Source: Flavobacteriaceae bacterium
GTDB taxonomy: Bacteria > Bacteroidota > Bacteroidia > Flavobacteriales > Flavobacteriaceae
Assembly: GCA_029248885.1 (NCBI GenBank)
Contig: JAQWIL010000009.1
Span: 1 to 64,000, forward strand
Direction of reading: 5' to 3'
Length of the DNA stretch: 64,000 bases
The notes under the pieces are model-generated. The model saw nothing but the letters and a program-made list of their open reading frames with translations. It searched no databases and was not told the origin of the DNA. Positions 1 to 42,656 of the stretch are shown piece by piece (position 1 is the stretch's first letter; every line of letters begins with the position of its first letter). Made by a program: the position numbers and the translations under genes.

Positions 1-19
1 CAAGATTTCGGACAACGAT

Positions 20-126
20 AAGGTGGCTATTGCATTGGGGCTCACCTCTTCCCATCCCGAACAGAGAAGTTAAGCCCAATAGCGCAGATGGTACTGCCAT
101 TGGTGGGAGAGTATGTCGCCGCCTTC
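20..126 (+). rRNA. rrf: 5S ribosomal RNA
   Basis: The sequence has the conserved 5S core (CCCATCCCGAACAGAGAAGTTAAGC in the middle, and the GGTGGGAGAGTA loop near the 3' end). The ends pair as helix I: AAGGTGGC at 20-27 with GCCGCCTT at 118-125. A strong intrinsic terminator follows directly, so this is the last gene of an rRNA operon whose 23S and 16S genes would lie to the left of the window. Ends are set from the helix and could be off by one or two bases. Confidence 0.95.
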
Positions 127-130
127 TTCG

Positions 131-160
131 AACCCCTTCACAGTCGTGAAGGGGTTTTTT
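131..160 (+). terminator. Intrinsic terminator of the rRNA operon
   Basis: An 11-bp perfect stem (AACCCCTTCAC / GTGAAGGGGTT) with a 4-base loop is followed by a run of T. It starts five bases after the 5S rRNA and would end rRNA transcription before the convergent DUF5916 gene. Confidence 0.93.
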
Positions 161-183: not shown

Positions 184-312
184 CTAAATCTCAAAAAGAT
201 ACTGAAATTTAAAATACAACTGACTGCTATCGATATCGAGATTGCCAGCAATGTCGCCTTCTCCATATCCCTGACTGCCTCCAATAAAAAATATTGTAAA
301 TGGATTTGGATT
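184..312 (-). other. Severed 3' tail of the DUF5916 gene (in-frame continuation past a TAG)
   Basis: Reading on from the TAG stop at 313-315 in the same frame gives 42 more codons and then a second TAG at 184-186. The tail begins NPNPFTIFFIGG and ends with alternating aromatic residues (YFKFQYLFEI), which looks like the last strand of an outer-membrane beta-barrel and like the usual end of DUF5916 proteins as I know them. There are no other stops or frameshifts. The simplest ancestral codon at the stop is TGG (Trp), giving LLKWNPNPF. It accounts for the otherwise empty space between the rRNA terminator and the annotated gene. Confidence 0.75.
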
Positions 313-2337
313 CTATTTCAATAGCGGCTGAATAAACAAGGTGTCATCAAATTCATTGTATTCACTCACGAGACGAAACGACAGGTCTTTATTGAATTGA
401 TAATTTGTAATGAATCGTGCGATATATCCTTTGTAGTATAAACTGTTGTCCTCTTTCGATCGCATTTGTGAATAGCGAAGCGACTGACCGATTCTCAACT
501 TTGGAGAGAGTTGAAAGCTGTTGAATGAACCAATAAAAAACTGTTTACCCACCGCTGGATTTTCCTCATCATACCTTAATTCATCCCCAATTGATACAAA
601 TGAACGTAAACGAATTGATTCATTTGGGCTATAGCTAGTAAACATGCTATATTGCATCATATCTTGCCCTACAAAGCCTTCATACTCTTGCTCCATAATA
701 TGAACAATGTTCAACCTGCTTTCCCAATTTCCTTTCCACACGATGTTAGCATTGCTAAATAGGTCTGTATATTTGGGAGTTCCTGCATAATTGTAGCTCA
801 ATTCTGAACCCAGATTTACTCTCAACTGCTGAATAAGTGCATCTTTATTTTTTGGAAATGCAACATACTGCTGTACAATTTCTGCGTTTCGAAGGTTGTT
901 TTGTGTTACAAAACCTAAAGGCGTTTCAAAATTTGGACTGTACTGAGAATAGTAAAAAAAGGTGTTCCAATGTTTGGTTGTTCGATCTAAAGAAACGAAT
1001 AATCCGTCTCCATTTTTTGATTCCCCATCTAATGCTACCGTTTTTTTTCCTTGCTTGTCATTACTCTCAATCCAGTCTTGTATGGGCTCCTCAATAGATG
1101 AAAAGTTCCACTCTGCATTCAATGAATATTTATTTGCGATGCGCAACCTGCTGTTTATCCCCATGAGTTGACCGTGACCACCGCCATGAAAAAATCGGTT
1201 TGTCGATAAAAACCCCAGATGTGAGCCCCCATCGAATGTGCGCTGATAACTAAAAATATTTGCCCATGCTTCATTTCCCTCGCCTGAATAAGATTGATTT
1301 TCTCCAGCGATTAGATAGGGTGTGTTTTCGTCATATGCTGTCAACCAGTATAATCGCTGATTGTTGCCTTGATGAATCAGCTTTGTTGACGCGATCGGAT
1401 TGTTGATACTCCTCGTGTATACCGCCTGCTGGTTGGAGTTGATGATGTCATTCCCCTCATTGAAATAGGGTCGCCTCTCAGGATAAAATAACGCAAAGGT
1501 ATTATTCGCATCAATTTGTGATACGTCGGCCTCAATCTGAGAAAAATCTGGATTAAGGGTCAATTCTAAGGTTGTGTTGCTTGACAAGTCAAAAAGTCCA
1601 CTAAGCCCGATTGTACCTTTCGGTTTTTGTTGTTGAAAATGACCATTTTCCCGATACCCAGCTTTTCCCAAAAACACATAAGGTAAAAGATTTATTCTTT
1701 TATTTGAGGTGACATTATGCAGTGTAATCCGATCTGGAGTTTGGCAAACCACACATGGATTCGAGCGATCATAAGCAAAATTGATCATCTGTATTCTTGT
1801 GTCATTTGCATAGCCCGAACGTCCAAACACCACAGCCCATTCCATGGTTTCAGCAGGGGTGAATTGGAGTCCACTTATCGGAATTTTAAATTCTACATGG
1901 TAAGCATCATCGTGTTTTGAGGCCTTGGTTTCATAGAATAGATTGTATTCATCATTGTTGCCATTGGGTAGAATTTTTAGATCGAACTGACTTCCATCTG
2001 GATTTGAACCAAGGACAATCATGTTTCGACCATCTCCATAGGGGTCTATTCCGATGGCGATATTATCATCACCGCCGATTTGATCTCGACTTCGAATAGA
2101 AGAACGAAGCTCGTTCATGTTTGCAAATGCGATAAACCCAACAAACAAATCATTGCCGACTTGATGTACAAATACCTCTGTTTTGTAATGGGCTGGGCCA
2201 TTGTCAGAAGGTTCTATTTCGAAGGGGATTGAAAATTGTTGTGCGCCTTGCCACTCTTCGGCTGAGACTACACCATCAAATACAGGTTGTTGGGAAATAA
2301 CAAAAAAACTACAGAGAGGAATTAAGATTCTAAGCAT
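313..2337 (-). CDS. DUF5916 outer-membrane protein with N-terminal CBM9-like domain, truncated by an in-frame TAG
   Basis: A 674-residue product. An N-terminal signal peptide (MLRILIPLCSFFVISQ) precedes a family-9 carbohydrate-binding-like beta-sandwich (about residues 20-190), then a long DUF5916 region rich in alternating hydrophobic/aromatic strands with the motif PERRPYFNEGND. DUF5916 proteins are common in Bacteroidota and thought to be outer-membrane barrels; the substrate is unknown. I start at the ATG at 2337 because it begins the signal peptide; the longer reading opens with TTG. The frame closes at a TAG (313-315), but the same frame continues for 42 family-like codons (184-312). 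The predicted protein therefore lacks its last barrel strands and may not be assembled by BAM. It is either a fresh pseudogene, a readthrough gene or a sequence error. Confidence 0.85.
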   Translation of the reverse strand: MLRILIPLCSFFVISQQPVFDGVVSAEEWQGAQQFSIPFEIEPSDNGPAHYKTEVFVHQVGNDLFVGFIAFANMNELRSSIRSRDQIGGDDNIAIGIDPYGDGRNMIVLGSNPDGSQFDLKILPNGNNDEYNLFYETKASKHDDAYHVEFKIPISGLQFTPAETMEWAVVFGRSGYANDTRIQMINFAYDRSNPCVVCQTPDRITLHNVTSNKRINLLPYVFLGKAGYRENGHFQQQKPKGTIGLSGLFDLSSNTTLELTLNPDFSQIEADVSQIDANNTFALFYPERRPYFNEGNDIINSNQQAVYTRSINNPIASTKLIHQGNNQRLYWLTAYDENTPYLIAGENQSYSGEGNEAWANIFSYQRTFDGGSHLGFLSTNRFFHGGGHGQLMGINSRLRIANKYSLNAEWNFSSIEEPIQDWIESNDKQGKKTVALDGESKNGDGLFVSLDRTTKHWNTFFYYSQYSPNFETPLGFVTQNNLRNAEIVQQYVAFPKNKDALIQQLRVNLGSELSYNYAGTPKYTDLFSNANIVWKGNWESRLNIVHIMEQEYEGFVGQDMMQYSMFTSYSPNESIRLRSFVSIGDELRYDEENPAVGKQFFIGSFNSFQLSPKLRIGQSLRYSQMRSKEDNSLYYKGYIARFITNYQFNKDLSFRLVSEYNEFDDTLFIQPLLK

Positions 2338-2396
2338 CGTTTGGGACTTTATAATAAAATAACGCAATTTACATCATTCTATTTCATAAATTGATG

Positions 2397-3065
2397 TTAA
2401 TGTTTTAAGATGGATAAACCAATACCGATTACAATGACCAAAAGTTTTGAGATGTTGAACTTATGATTTTCTGTACTTTCAAACAATATCGTGGTTGAGA
2501 TATGAAGTAAAACCCCGACAACTAGAGCGGTGATGTGTACACTGTATGGCTGCAAAATGGGTGTGTAGACATTGAGATAACTTCCCAATGGAGTCATGAT
2601 TGCAAACCCAATAAGAATGACCACTTTTTTAGGAAAGTTGAAGTTTGTCTGCCATATTGCAAGGGTGAGCAACATCGCTATCGGAAGCTTGTGAATGACA
2701 ATTGCCCACAACAAGTCATTGTGTTTATGAATGGGAAATCCCTCGATAAAAGCGTGTAAATAAAGCCCAGTTACAAGCGTCATCGGAATTCTTTTCCCGC
2801 TTGTATGGATATGACCATGTTCAGCACCTTTTGACAATTGCTCCAACACAATTTGGATGATAATCCCAGCGAGAATCCAATAACTAATTTGCTCATTGCT
2901 GTTGGCAAATACGGACGGTAGTAAAGAGGTTAGGGTCGTGCCAAGTAAGAAAGCACCGCTAAACGCCAACAACAATTTGATCGATCGAAGCTCTTTTGGC
3001 CGCCAAAAAAATATGACTAAACTGCCAACAAGTACAGCAAATATTGGAAGAAAGTAAATGTTCAT
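2397..3065 (-). CDS. ZIP family metal transporter
   Basis: A 222-residue integral membrane protein with about seven or eight hydrophobic segments. The ZIP signature helices are visible as LHAFIEGFP (about residue 110) and HKLPIAMLL (about 125), which carry the His/Glu/Pro metal-path residues, and a His-rich loop (EHGHIHTSG) lies before them. ZIP proteins import divalent metals such as Zn2+ or Fe2+ across the inner membrane; the metal cannot be told from sequence. Its ATG overlaps the TGA of the upstream methyltransferase gene (ATGA), so the two are translationally coupled in one operon. Confidence 0.85.
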   Translation of the reverse strand: MNIYFLPIFAVLVGSLVIFFWRPKELRSIKLLLAFSGAFLLGTTLTSLLPSVFANSNEQISYWILAGIIIQIVLEQLSKGAEHGHIHTSGKRIPMTLVTGLYLHAFIEGFPIHKHNDLLWAIVIHKLPIAMLLTLAIWQTNFNFPKKVVILIGFAIMTPLGSYLNVYTPILQPYSVHITALVVGVLLHISTTILFESTENHKFNISKLLVIVIGIGLSILKH

Positions 3066-13793: not shown

Positions 13794-15221
13794 TTAGTTC
13801 GAGAATTTCTTTGTCAGGTCTTCTACGTACTTACGGAATTGCTTATCTGTGAAGGCGAGGTTATCGACCGTTTTACAAGCGTGCAGAACAGTGGCATGAT
13901 CCCGATGTCCAATTTGTTGACCGATATTTGCGAGCGATGCTTTGGTGAGTTTTTTTGCAAAAAACATTGCCAATTGACGTGCTTGAACAATATGACGTTT
14001 CCGGGTTTTGGACTGTAGTGTAGTCACATCCATTTGGAAATAATCTGAAACTACCTTTTGGATATAGTCAATAGAAATTTCACGCTTGGTGTTTCTCACA
14101 AATTTCTCAACTACTCGTTTGGCAAGCTCAAGAGTCACTTCGAGTTTATTAAAAGACGATTGAGCGATTAACGAAATAATAGCCCCTTCAAGCTCACGTA
14201 TATTTGTTTTGACTGATTTGGCAACATAAGAAATGATTTCGTCTGAAAGCTCAACCCCGTCTCTATATAATTTGTTTTTTAAAATCGAAACGCGTGTTTC
14301 ATAATCGGGTTTTTGAAGCTCCGCCGAAAGCCCCCACTTAAAGCGAGAGAGTAAACGCTGCTCAATGTCTTGCATGTCGACAGGCGCTTTATCGGAAGTG
14401 AGTATGACTTGTTTTCCGTTTTGGTGTAAATGATTGAATATATGAAAAAAGACATCTTGCGTTCCGGACTTTCCTGAAAAAAACTGTACGTCATCAATGA
14501 TTAATACATCAATTAGTTGGTAGAAGTGAATGAAGTCATTTCTATTGTTTTTCTTTATGGCATCAATGTATTGCTGCGTAAATTTTTCGGCTGAAATATA
14601 GAGTACAGTTTTTTCAGGATAATTTTCTTTGACTTGAACCCCGATAGCGTGTGCGAGGTGAGTCTTCCCAAGTCCAACTCCTCCAAAAATGAGAAGGGGA
14701 TTAAATGAAGTACCACCAGGACGATTCGCTACAGCAATTCCAGCGGAACGAGCAAGTCGATTGGAGTCACCTTCTAAGAAGCTATCAAAATTATAGCTCG
14801 CGTTTAATTGGGACTCAATTTTTAAGTTGCGAATCCCTGGAATGATAAACGGGTTTTTGAGCTCCGATGTCTGTCCTTGACTTGGGGCTTCAATGTTTTG
14901 CGTGTGAATTCCTGTGCGGCTGCTACTTGGGATTTTTTGCGTAAAAGGCAACTTACTCCCATAGGTATTCTCCATACGTATAATGTATACCAAGCGACCA
15001 TCATCTCCAAGCTCTTTGTGGAGAGCGGTTTTTAGGATTTTGATGTAGTGTTCCTCAATCCACTCGTAAAAGAATTTGCTAGGAACCTCGATATTGAGGG
15101 CATTATCTTTCAGCTTGACAGGAACGATAGGATTAAACCAAGTTTTGAATGCTTGAGGGTCAATATTATCCCCAACGAAGCTCAAGCATTTTTTCCAAAC
15201 AGATTCAGCAGTTTGCTGCAT
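13794..15221 (-). CDS. dnaA: Chromosomal replication initiator protein DnaA
   Basis: A 475-residue initiator. Domain I is about residues 1-80, a linker follows, and the AAA+ domain has Walker A GGVGLGKTHLAHAI (about 178) and Walker B VLIIDDVQFFSGK. Domain IV ends with the DNA-binding signature GHRDHATVLHACKTV (about 435-450). DnaA opens oriC and loads the helicase. It heads a minus-strand operon with the tyrosine phosphatase and the methylase. The 194-bp AT-rich space upstream, with a divergent thioesterase, is the probable origin region. Confidence 0.97.
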   Translation of the reverse strand: MQQTAESVWKKCLSFVGDNIDPQAFKTWFNPIVPVKLKDNALNIEVPSKFFYEWIEEHYIKILKTALHKELGDDGRLVYIIRMENTYGSKLPFTQKIPSSSRTGIHTQNIEAPSQGQTSELKNPFIIPGIRNLKIESQLNASYNFDSFLEGDSNRLARSAGIAVANRPGGTSFNPLLIFGGVGLGKTHLAHAIGVQVKENYPEKTVLYISAEKFTQQYIDAIKKNNRNDFIHFYQLIDVLIIDDVQFFSGKSGTQDVFFHIFNHLHQNGKQVILTSDKAPVDMQDIEQRLLSRFKWGLSAELQKPDYETRVSILKNKLYRDGVELSDEIISYVAKSVKTNIRELEGAIISLIAQSSFNKLEVTLELAKRVVEKFVRNTKREISIDYIQKVVSDYFQMDVTTLQSKTRKRHIVQARQLAMFFAKKLTKASLANIGQQIGHRDHATVLHACKTVDNLAFTDKQFRKYVEDLTKKFSN

Positions 15222-15415
15222 TATTTGTCGTCTTAATATTTGTTTCTAAGGTTATTAGAAATGGTGCAATAGATAAAAAGTTTGAACGTAAACTTTGAAA
15301 CAAATATGCATGTAAAAAATTTGAAAAAAAAACTTTTTTGGTATTGAATTTTCAGAAACTTTTATGCATATTATAAACGCATTTTCTAATTTCGTTTTGT
15401 AAGAAAAAACTTATT
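15222..15415. other. AT-rich dnaA upstream region, candidate oriC
   Basis: A 194-bp gap between divergent dnaA and the thioesterase gene, strongly AT-rich with many A and T runs. It holds an inverted repeat AAAGTTT (15277-15283) / AAACTTT (15290-15296), two ATGCAT palindromes (15307-15312 and 15363-15368) and a near-palindrome TTTATGCATATTATAAA (15361-15377). Gene direction changes here: mostly minus to the left and mostly plus to the right. I do not see clear TTATCCACA DnaA boxes, so the origin call is tentative. A 7/8 -7 element (TAATTTCG, 15387-15394) may serve the thioesterase. Confidence 0.45.
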
Positions 15416-15820
15416 ATGTGTAAGAAAAAATTTGTTTGCCAATTGACAACTCGTTATGCCGAAACCGATCAAATGGGTGTTATTCACCACGGCATCTACG
15501 CAACTTACTTTGAACTAGCTCGGATTGAGTGGTTGCGGTTTCTCGGTTTGAGCTATGCCAAGCTAGAAACACAGGGAATTTTATTACCGGTATTGTCACT
15601 TTCAACAGAATTCAAACACCCTCTTTACTTCGAAGATCAAATCCAAATCGAGATTTGTTTGCAAAGCGAGCCAACCTCAATCATAGATTTTTCTTATCAA
15701 ATTTTTAATCAAGACAAAGTGCTTTGTACGACAGCCAAAACCCGTCTAGCTTTTGTGAATGCAGAGACTCGAAAAATCATGCGCTGCCCCGAAGTATTTC
15801 TCAATGCGCTAGGGGATTAA
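15416..15820 (+). CDS. Acyl-CoA thioesterase, 4-hydroxybenzoyl-CoA thioesterase (YbgC) type
   Basis: A 134-residue hotdog-fold protein. The signature TRYAETDQMGVIHHGIYATYFELARIEWLR contains the catalytic Asp and the H-x-x-Y-x-x-x-F/E-x-x-R helix typical of YbgC. These enzymes hydrolyse short acyl-CoAs, sometimes acyl-ACP, in the cytoplasm; physiological substrate unknown. It diverges from dnaA, and its last 20 bases overlap the end of ribD on the opposite strand. Confidence 0.88.
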   Translation: MCKKKFVCQLTTRYAETDQMGVIHHGIYATYFELARIEWLRFLGLSYAKLETQGILLPVLSLSTEFKHPLYFEDQIQIEICLQSEPTSIIDFSYQIFNQDKVLCTTAKTRLAFVNAETRKIMRCPEVFLNALGD

Positions 15821-16865
15821 CCCATTGCTTTAAAATATCTCCGTCAAAGGTTGTTGACGAGTTTGGTGTCCCCAAAAATGATTTCGTGTTTGGTGCACTA
15901 ATTCCGCTCCCAAATTTTTCTTGCCCTGTGATTATCCGAGTCTCATCCCATAATCCAGAATCGATAAAATGCTGAAGCGTGACGGAGCCGCCCTCTACCA
16001 AAATAGATTGAATCCCTTTTTGAAATAAAATGTTTAGAATTTGCTGTAATCCATTTGCGGAAAAATCAATAGATACATATTCAATATGGTCTTTCGTTCG
16101 ACTTTTTTTTGCAGTAAACACAATTACCTTTTGGTCTGGATTAAACACTTTCGCTTTGTGATCAACTTCCTCTTTTGGGTCAATTAACAATCGAATCGGT
16201 GAGGAGCCTTTGTATAGTCTAGTTGTCAAAGCAGGATTATCATCCAATGCGGTTTGTTTGCCAATCAAAATTGATTGCTCTTCTGCTCGCCATTGATGCG
16301 CTTTTGTTCTGGACAAGAGATTGCTTATCCACACTGGCTCGTTTTTCGTTTTGGTTTTGGGTGCAAGAAATCCATCCGCAGTCTCTGCCCACTTTAATAT
16401 AATGTAAGGGCGTTGTTTTTCAATAGTTGTGACAAATCGTTTATTTAATTTTCTACAGGAAGCAGTTTCTACTCCGACATCAACGCGTATGCCAGCATCA
16501 CGTAGTTTTTGGATACCCATTCCATTTACTTTTACAAAAGGATCCTGCATGCCAACAACGACATGGCGAATCCCACTTTGAATAATCAAATCTGTGCAAG
16601 GCGGTGTTTTTCCATGATGACTACATGGCTCTAGGTTGACATATAAAGTGGAGTCAGCTAAAACAGATCGGTCTGAAACAGAGTTGATGGCATGAACTTC
16701 GGCATGTGCTTGTCCAGACTTTTGATGCCAACCAGAACCAATCACTTGACCCTTATAAACGATTAACGATCCAACCAAGGGGTTTGGGTATGTGCTGCCG
16801 AGCCCTTGCTTGGCAAGGGCGATACATTTGTTCATAAATTTGGATGCACTCATACCAAATTTCAT
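15801..16865 (-). CDS. ribD: Bifunctional diaminohydroxyphosphoribosylaminopyrimidine deaminase / 5-amino-6-(5-phosphoribosylamino)uracil reductase
   Basis: A 354-residue riboflavin enzyme. The N-terminal deaminase has the zinc motifs HAEVHAI and PCSHHGKTPPC (about residues 52 and 78), and the reductase half begins near PYIILKWAETADGFLA (about 150) and ends with ILVEGGSVTLQHFI. I start at ATG 16865 (MKFGMSASKF); an ATG at 16853 is also possible, and the longer frame would run into the divergent acetyltransferase. Only 33 bp separate it from that gene, so there is no space for an FMN riboswitch. Other rib genes are not in the window. Confidence 0.94.
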   Translation of the reverse strand: MKFGMSASKFMNKCIALAKQGLGSTYPNPLVGSLIVYKGQVIGSGWHQKSGQAHAEVHAINSVSDRSVLADSTLYVNLEPCSHHGKTPPCTDLIIQSGIRHVVVGMQDPFVKVNGMGIQKLRDAGIRVDVGVETASCRKLNKRFVTTIEKQRPYIILKWAETADGFLAPKTKTKNEPVWISNLLSRTKAHQWRAEEQSILIGKQTALDDNPALTTRLYKGSSPIRLLIDPKEEVDHKAKVFNPDQKVIVFTAKKSRTKDHIEYVSIDFSANGLQQILNILFQKGIQSILVEGGSVTLQHFIDSGLWDETRIITGQEKFGSGISAPNTKSFLGTPNSSTTFDGDILKQWVNPLAH

Positions 16866-36959: not shown

Positions 36960-38273
36960 ATGGGGCATTTACAAAAAGGAAGTAAAAAACTCATTCGTGC
37001 TTGGGCCTCTTACGATTGGGCAAATTCTGTTTACTTTTTGGTGATCACTTCCACCATATTCCCCATTTATTATGGTTCCTTATTTGGCGATAACCTTTAC
37101 ATTGACGTGTTTGGGCAGTCTCTAAAAAATACTGCTTTGATAAGTTATACAACTGCAGCTGCCTTCGCTGTTGTTGCGGTTTTGTCTCCTATTTTATCTG
37201 GAATTGCTGATTATATAGGAAACAAGAAGTCTTTTATGCAATTTTACACTTATGTTGGAGCTCTGGCCTGTGTTGGCTTATACTGGTTCAATCTTGATAA
37301 TATTTATTTTGGGTTGCTTTGTTATTTTTTCGCCTCTGTGGGTGCATGGCTGAGTTGGGTTTTTTACAACTCCTATCTTCCGGATATTGCCCATCCCGAA
37401 CAGATGGACAAAGCGAGTGCGTTGGGCTATTCTTTGGGTTATGTGGGCAGTGTGTTGTTGTTGCTCGTCAATTTGAGCATGGTTCTCAACCCCAGCATGT
37501 ACGGAATTGAAGTTAGTTCAACTGAAGCGTCGATTAAGGCCATGCAATATTCCTTTGTCTGCGTCGGGGTGTGGTGGATACTTTTTAGTCAAATCGCCTT
37601 TCGATTTTTGCCTAATGACAATAAATCCAATGCATTGACAAAAAATATCATTTTTAATGGATACCGAGAGCTTCGTTCCGTTTGGAAAAGTTTTTCAAAT
37701 CATCCAATTTTAAAAAGTTATATCGGTGCTTTTTTTGTATTCAGTATGGCAGTGCAGACGGTGATGCTGATTGCTGCTTATTTTGGGGAGCAAGAGGTCA
37801 CTTGGGGAAGTATGAGTGAAAAACAAACGGGTCTGATCGTCAGTATTATGATTATCCAACTGATTGCGATTGTCGGGGCCATACTAACGGCTCGTTTTTC
37901 AGAAAAATTTGGCAACCTTCCAGTACTGATCGCCCTAAACTTTATTTGGGTTATTCTCTGTTTGTATGCTTTTTTTGTTACGACCCCAATACAATTTTAC
38001 ATTGCAGCAGGTTTTGTAGGCTTGTCTATGGGCGGGATACAATCCTTGGCCCGATCAACATATTCCAAATACATGCCTAAAACGGATGATACGGCGTCAT
38101 TTTTCAGTTTTTACAGCACCTCTCAAATGACAGGAATCGTTTTAGGAATGTTACTCTTTGGGACAATTGATCAAGTCACCGGGTCGATGCGCAATTCAAT
38201 TTTATTTTTTCTTTCGTTTTTCTTGATTGGTGCCTTTCTTTTGATACGTCTTCACCGAAAGTCAGCGGTCTGA
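36960..38273 (+). CDS. MFS transporter, UMF1/Atg22-like family
   Basis: A 437-residue transporter with about 12 hydrophobic helices. The N-terminal KLIRAWASYDWANSVYFLVITSTIFPIYYGS is the signature of the UMF1 (Atg22-like) branch, and the later GLSMGGIQSLARSTYSKYMP matches the cytoplasmic-loop motif of that group. Some members export amino acids or permeate vacuoles; substrate here unknown. Start at ATG 36960; the longer frame (36909) would add residues unlike the family. The stop sits next to the read-through end of the DUF2807 frame (convergent). Confidence 0.85.
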   Translation: MGHLQKGSKKLIRAWASYDWANSVYFLVITSTIFPIYYGSLFGDNLYIDVFGQSLKNTALISYTTAAAFAVVAVLSPILSGIADYIGNKKSFMQFYTYVGALACVGLYWFNLDNIYFGLLCYFFASVGAWLSWVFYNSYLPDIAHPEQMDKASALGYSLGYVGSVLLLLVNLSMVLNPSMYGIEVSSTEASIKAMQYSFVCVGVWWILFSQIAFRFLPNDNKSNALTKNIIFNGYRELRSVWKSFSNHPILKSYIGAFFVFSMAVQTVMLIAAYFGEQEVTWGSMSEKQTGLIVSIMIIQLIAIVGAILTARFSEKFGNLPVLIALNFIWVILCLYAFFVTTPIQFYIAAGFVGLSMGGIQSLARSTYSKYMPKTDDTASFFSFYSTSQMTGIVLGMLLFGTIDQVTGSMRNSILFFLSFFLIGAFLLIRLHRKSAV

Positions 38274-38447
38274 AAATATATATTTTTTCCCACCAAGCCA
38301 GGTTGATATTTCTACACGTTTGGGGCTACCTTTATAGACAACATCTGCCGTTCCATCGACCATCGCTTTTAATTTCTGAGAACAATTGATATTTGCTTGT
38401 CCAGATCCAGTGAGACGTAAAAATGAGTTTTCGGTTTTCAGCTCCTC
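38262..38447 (-). other. Severed 3' tail of the DUF2807 gene (in-frame continuation past a TAA)
   Basis: After the TAA at 38448-38450 the same frame runs on for 61 codons to a TGA (38262-38264) with no other stop. The translation contains LTGSGQANINCSQKL and DGTADVVYKGSPKRVE, typical of the repeating GSG / VYKG-x-P beta-helix rungs of DUF2807 proteins. The tail overlaps the MFS transporter's last 12 bases. One change in the TAA codon would restore a 241-residue protein. Confidence 0.78.
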
Positions 38448-38987
38448 TTAGTGAAGATGACCTGAGCCAATGATTTTCCCCTTTATGGTCTTACAGCTCC
38501 CATTTAGGAAAATATGCCCAGATCCAGTGATATGCACGGAAACCACTTGGCTTTTTATAGGGAATTGTATTTCTCCAGAGCCGATGAGTTCAAGCAGCAG
38601 ATGTTTTGAAAATAAAGAGTTTGAACTTGAAATCTTACCCGAACCGATAACATATATTTCAGATAACTCTTTTGCTGTCACAGTAATATGTATTGGATCC
38701 TCTGTTTTGCTGTGAAGTCTCTTGTTGTTAGATGTTCTCAAAACGAGTTTGTTGCTGTTGACTTCAAATTCGACATAAGGAAGTAAATTAGATTCCCCGA
38801 CGATTGAGATGTTGTGACGATTTCCTTTATTCAGTGTGATTTCAAAAGGACCTAAAACTTCAATCGTATCAAATTTTGGTACTTCTTGGTAAATAGAGTC
38901 TAGGATTTCATTTCCAGAAATTGTGTCTTGCCATTGAGAAAAAGAAATGGAAACTGTAAAAAGTAATGTAATTAATATATATTTCAT
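38448..38987 (-). CDS. DUF2807 (GIN-domain, head-of-adhesin-like) protein, truncated by an in-frame TAA
   Basis: A 179-residue product with a signal peptide (MKYILITLLFTVSISFSQ). The rest is the right-handed beta-helix of the 'putative auto-transporter adhesin, head GIN domain' family: recurring GSG motifs (IGSGKISSS, IGSGEIQF, TGSGHIFLNG, IGSGHLH). The frame stops at a TAA just after the last rung listed, whereas families members usually continue for about 60 residues; those are still encoded in frame (38262-38447). Function unknown, envelope-located. It sits alone between the MFS transporter and lon. Confidence 0.85.
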   Translation of the reverse strand: MKYILITLLFTVSISFSQWQDTISGNEILDSIYQEVPKFDTIEVLGPFEITLNKGNRHNISIVGESNLLPYVEFEVNSNKLVLRTSNNKRLHSKTEDPIHITVTAKELSEIYVIGSGKISSSNSLFSKHLLLELIGSGEIQFPIKSQVVSVHITGSGHIFLNGSCKTIKGKIIGSGHLH

Positions 38988-41648: not shown

Positions 41649-42656
41649 ATGAGACTGATTGCATTTTGCACTTTTTTGTTTTGCTCGTCAATAGCTGCTC
41701 AAATTGGTGGGTCAAACACCTATCAGTTTTTAGAGCTGTCTCCGAGCCCAAGGCACATGGCTTTGGGAACATGGATTTCGACTTTATCTCCAAACTCCAT
41801 CCACAGTGGCTTGGTAAATCCAGCAATGGTTTCAGATTCCGTTCAGGGGCAGGTCGTATTGAACTACCAGCCCTATTTTGCGGGAATCAATCGCGGTACT
41901 GCAGCCGCTGTTTTTGGTTTAAAAGAAGGGCGTTCCATTTTAGTTGACACCCGATTTGTACATTATGGAACCTTTGATGAAACAGATAATTTTGGAGATA
42001 AAATAGGCGAATTTTCGGGAAATGAAGTTGCTTTGGGCGTTGCTTATGCACACCATTTTCCTTCCAAAAATATCTTTGTAGGCGCAAGGTTAAACTTGAT
42101 TAGTTCAACGCTTGCAGAATACAATTCAACTGGGTTTACAGCAGATCTAGGAGTATATCATACTTTTCCATCTTCTCGTTATCGATTTAGCTTGGTTGCT
42201 CGAAATATTGGGTCACAAATCAGCACATATGATAGTGTAAAAGAAAGCCTTCCTTTTTCTTTGTCATTCGGTATTTCTAATGAATTAGAGTATCTCCCTC
42301 TCCGCTGGCATTTGTCGATTGATCAGCTACAAAATTGGAATCTTGCCTATGTTAACCCCAATCAGCAGCAAACCGATTTTGAAGGAGAGTTGATAGAACA
42401 AAACCCAAGCTTTTTTGACGAATTATTCAGACACCTTGTGTTTGGCGCCGAGCTGTTTCCCGAGCGAGCATTTTCCATGCAATTTGGTTATAATTTTTTG
42501 CGTTCAGCGGAGCTTTCAATTGCCGAAGTTCGTAGTTTTTCAGGTTTGAGTTTTGGCTTTGGTATCAATTTGCGAAAATTCAGGTTTAATTACAGTCATG
42601 CGCGTTTTAGCGCTGCAGGGAATACTAATTTTTTAGGCCTTACATTTGTGCCCTGA
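41649..42656 (+). CDS. porQ: Type IX secretion system protein PorQ
   Basis: A 335-residue outer-membrane beta-barrel protein with a signal peptide (MRLIAFCTFLFCSSIAAQ). The N-terminus YQFLELSPSPRHMALGTWIST and the glycine/aromatic-rich strands are of the PorP/PorQ (FadL-like) group; PorQ lies next to cmk in many flavobacteria, as here. PorQ helps T9SS release and modify its cargo; the 1130-residue T9SS substrate in the window would depend on it. lon ends 28 bp upstream. Confidence 0.82.
   Translation: MRLIAFCTFLFCSSIAAQIGGSNTYQFLELSPSPRHMALGTWISTLSPNSIHSGLVNPAMVSDSVQGQVVLNYQPYFAGINRGTAAAVFGLKEGRSILVDTRFVHYGTFDETDNFGDKIGEFSGNEVALGVAYAHHFPSKNIFVGARLNLISSTLAEYNSTGFTADLGVYHTFPSSRYRFSLVARNIGSQISTYDSVKESLPFSLSFGISNELEYLPLRWHLSIDQLQNWNLAYVNPNQQQTDFEGELIEQNPSFFDELFRHLVFGAELFPERAFSMQFGYNFLRSAELSIAEVRSFSGLSFGFGINLRKFRFNYSHARFSAAGNTNFLGLTFVP
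42641..42648 (+). promoter_or_regulatory. Possible internal promoter for cmk at the end of porQ
   Basis: TACATTTG is a perfect -7 element within the last codons of porQ, eight bases before the cmk ATG at 42657. It could allow cmk to be made without porQ; no -33 box is seen at 19 bases. Confidence 0.35.

Follow-up and report, generated by a model that had tools for sequence, protein, structure and literature searches.

A single in-frame TAG interrupts a long reading frame on the minus strand of a 64-kb stretch of flavobacterial DNA (the window, by which we mean the whole stretch analysed; it comes from contig 15 of a 1.51-Mb draft genome in 38 contigs, estimated to be 78% complete), and behind the TAG the frame stays open for some distance. 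Is this a gene in decay, a sensible codon misread or misassembled, or a stop that the cell passes over? An earlier note had left these three options side by side. We favour the first, with a probability of about 0.82: the gene appears to be a very young pseudogene that is being lost in parallel across a genus of Flavobacteriaceae with reduced genomes. The different lesions in every readable congener support this option, and suppressed readthrough finds no support.

The interrupted gene, its tail and its family

Translation of 184-2337(-) gives 674 residues up to the TAG at 313-315, then 42 stop-free codons (312-187) and a TAG at 184-186, which confirms the layout that had been described earlier (Table 1). 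An open run of this kind is weak evidence on its own, because at least 42 open codons follow 13% of the TAG triplets in the window; it is homology that makes the tail significant. In the nearest full-length congener, G003 (L001/L049), the stop site is TGG, and the frame continues over the matching tail up to an identical terminal stop; the two 42-residue tails align without gaps and differ by six synonymous and four nonsynonymous changes. Orthologues in other genera are 44-53% identical across the full length; eight of them (44-52% over the whole alignment) are uninterrupted and have the same aromatic end; in all eight the stop column is occupied by Trp, followed by xPNPFT. Both G003 and the intact orthologues carry the tail and do not end at the TAG site. 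TGG in G003 and Trp in all eight support the proposal that a single TGG-to-TAG change lies in front of an undamaged C-terminus. The alignments show that the tail is the native C-terminus of the gene. That the ancestor had it also follows, on independent evidence, from G006, where the end of the tail, TTTTTGAGATCTAG, is kept as a scar at the point of excision (see below).

Table 1. Features of the interrupted gene and its surroundings in the window
Feature	Position	Strand	Remarks
DUF5916-like gene, probable pseudogene, interrupted once	187..2337	-	ATG 2335-2337; 717 codons and terminal stop
Premature TAG	313..315	-	Codon 675, invariant-Trp position
Native C-terminal tail, 42 codons (NPNPFTIFFIGG...YFKFQYLFEI)	187..312	-	Conserved in G003 and eight intact orthologues
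Terminal TAG, ancestral	184..186	-	Same stop in the same column in G003; 3' end TTTTTGAGATCTAG is the scar in G006
Terminator-like hairpin	130..157		Lies at the 3' end of the broken gene (-) and of the rRNA operon (+) alike
5S rRNA, closing the rRNA operon on the side facing the gene	19..127	+	Rfam RF00001, 83 bits
ZIP-family metal transporter, intact upstream neighbour	2397..3065	-	PF02535, E=6.8e-15

The ZIP gene marks the syntenic locus in G003, G004, G005, G006, G009 and G010 and is partially present in G001, and the hairpin is conserved in G003, G004 and G006 and also found in G001. We considered whether adjacency to rRNA is conserved along with the gene and rejected the idea, as the stretches read around orthologues from other genera contained none.

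The product had been labelled a DUF5916 protein. This label is upheld at the level of remote homology, but not by the Pfam model itself: the window protein has no match to PF19313 (DUF5916) or PF06452 (CBM9_1) even at E=10, and no model in Pfam or NCBIfam matches it. One orthologue matches CBM9_1 weakly (E=0.002, under the cut-off). When we compared the profile of the orthologues with an alignment of PF19313-matching proteins, hhalign reported a probability of 100% and E=2e-39 over 524 columns. The two groups share the same architecture, DUF5916 being often accompanied by an N-terminal CBM9_1 domain, and a common NPDFxQVEAD...ERRPxFxEG core; unlike DUF5916 proper, the window protein is part of a distinct subfamily, most members of which come from small-genome Flavobacteriaceae. 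Profile comparison suggests that the product is best named DUF5916-related, a divergent relative of that family. An outer-membrane location and a barrel fold are predicted from the family and from the aromatic pattern at the C-terminus; structure prediction based on the window protein together with fragments from two congeners gave no usable model (mean pLDDT 25.8), and a search of PDB with the orthologue profile found no solved relative. In the literature searched, the term DUF5916 was not found, and work on flavobacterial phage receptors and on genome streamlining contained nothing directly on this gene.

State of the gene across the genus

The earlier note was confined to one genome; what is new here is that breakage or deletion affects the gene genus-wide. 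No intact copy was found in the 13 genomes of the genus, all of which are incomplete, so that intact copies could sit in the missing parts; outside the genus, intact copies are present in many genera. At each of the six readable loci the gene is damaged or gone, and at least five kinds of lesion can be told apart. The window lineage has its nonsense codon at position 675 of 717, G003 has a 1-nt deletion at codon 479, and G005 has a different 1-nt deletion at codon 226, its contig stopping at codon 644; neither deletion lies within a long homopolymer. In G006 the whole gene has been excised, and the ZIP stop region is fused to the gene's final codons via a shared 3-base ATC. Between ZIP and 5S, G004 retains a 5' stub of about 75 codons that ends in TAA, and G001 an eroded 5' stub of about 50 codons; these stubs may derive from one shared deletion, and independent losses are therefore counted as at least five. 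As for the remaining ZIP loci, other genes separate ZIP from the rRNA operon in G010, and the contig ends within ZIP in G009.

In the three full-length copies (window, G003 and G005), the aligned frames contain no second internal stop or other lesion. The dN/dS of the gene is 0.07 between the window and G003, 0.06 between the window and G005, and 0.10 between G003 and G005, similar to the values for the ZIP neighbour (0.07-0.11); for the tail alone it is 0.135, computed from 10 differences. Low dN/dS and the lack of a second lesion together indicate that the lesions are recent on each lineage and do not go back to the common ancestor. Relaxed constraint, with dN/dS rising towards 1, is expected only of older pseudogenes and is not seen here, which calls for some caution in the use of the term. 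What is seen is a frame interrupted in comparison with functional orthologues, and independent kinds of lesion in relatives at a frequency above background.

To measure this background, we took 284 non-overlapping ORFs (our gene among them) from the flanking syntenic regions in the window, G003, G005, G006 and G009; a stop was disregarded if it fell within the first 12% or the last 2% of a frame. Apart from our gene, three genes in the flanks have clear internal lesions, i.e. about 1% (approximately 3 in 280 ORF instances), far below the three of three for the full-length copies of our gene.

Several damaged frames elsewhere deserve separate mention. The window has a second fresh nonsense codon, a TAA at 38448-38450, in the gene for a DUF2807 (PF10988) surface protein at 38241-38987(-), the orthologues of which in G003, G005 and G009 continue to about 240-250 codons. 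In G005, the orthologue of the window gene at 41649-42656 (L083; C85 34989-35992, minus strand; locus 14989-15992) has an internal stop and a frameshift; the window product has no Pfam match, and we take it to resemble a PorQ-type secretion protein. Finally, a gene near a contig end in G009 (L089, C7, 99-809) is interrupted by an in-frame stop when compared with G003 and G005. The most similar pair of genomes also shifts along 184-3065(-), being window-G005 over most of ZIP and G003-G005 in part of the 3' third of the broken gene; such switching of identity suggests recombination or allele exchange at the locus.

Gene loss and its alternatives

The course of events that we propose is as follows. 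A secreted protein with a CBM9-like part and a predicted outer-membrane barrel would have become dispensable in this small-genome genus, and its loss would have proceeded independently in several lineages. In the window lineage, a nonsense change probably created the TAG at codon 675, so that translation would end just short of the conserved C-terminal strands on which recognition of barrel proteins by BAM depends, and the product would therefore most likely be misassembled and degraded; in sister species single-base deletions have broken the gene, or it has been excised or cut down to 5' stubs beside 5S. That the truncated product no longer functions is presumed, as is the cause of dispensability. 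Under simple neutral decay it is slightly coincidental that each of the three full-length copies has exactly one fresh lesion, at dN/dS of 0.06-0.10; a recent change in need, common to these lineages, would fit strong past constraint together with repeated new breaks.

Very low dN/dS alongside different recent lesions in all three full-length copies is also what would be seen if null alleles of a surface protein, for instance a phage or bacteriocin receptor, recur and segregate in populations while purifying selection continues to act on the intact allele; the local changes of identity along the locus, with the allele exchange that they suggest, point the same way. What we see in the three single-lesion copies would then be a polymorphism and not terminal decay. 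Recent relaxation gives the same pattern, however, and the gene is irretrievably gone from G006, G004 and G001, as plain loss predicts; because of these three genomes we prefer simple loss and think segregating nulls unlikely.

A base or assembly error in a gene that is really intact in this organism would involve one base only, in a frame that is otherwise strongly constrained, in a draft genome of 38 contigs and at a site about 190 bases from an rRNA repeat that breaks contigs. Against it, two other species have different frame-breaking lesions, with deletions outside long homopolymers, and three more genomes have deletions or stubs that single-base errors could not produce. Since only about 1% of the syntenic flanking genes carry such breaks, an error is an improbable source of the genus-wide pattern; it could bear on this one site, at rather long odds.

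Programmed readthrough or recoding of the TAG to yield the full-length protein, for which the open and conserved tail might speak, can be practically dismissed: G003 has TGG, so that the TAG is not conserved; 16 window ORFs of at least 200 aa end in TAG, and the 15 others all stop where their congener orthologues stop (with one 3-residue exception in one comparison); the second nonsense codon in the window, in the DUF2807 gene, is TAA; and among the tRNAs detected in the 78%-complete genome none has a CUA anticodon, tRNA-Trp having the normal CCA. Genome-wide reassignment of TAG and a suppressor tRNA were likewise rejected, as TAG terminates elsewhere and no CUA tRNA is among those found. TAG works as a stop in this genome. 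When an in-frame stop is followed by a good tail, the lesions of relatives and a measured background rate should be weighed before readthrough is invoked.

Comparison with known pseudogenes

Young pseudogenes arise through parallel gene loss in the course of bacterial genome reduction, and this is a general phenomenon. At the locus described here, all stages, from a single premature stop to complete excision, are visible at one syntenic spot. The likeness to the young pseudogenes of genome reduction lies in the single, fresh, lineage-specific lesions that occur beside full deletions and stubs; the difference is that constraint is not visibly relaxed in the full-length copies, which would mean that their decay has only just begun. 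Parallel pseudogenisation of this sort is ordinary, but the present case is unusually well documented; its mechanism is gene loss, with no new coding trick.
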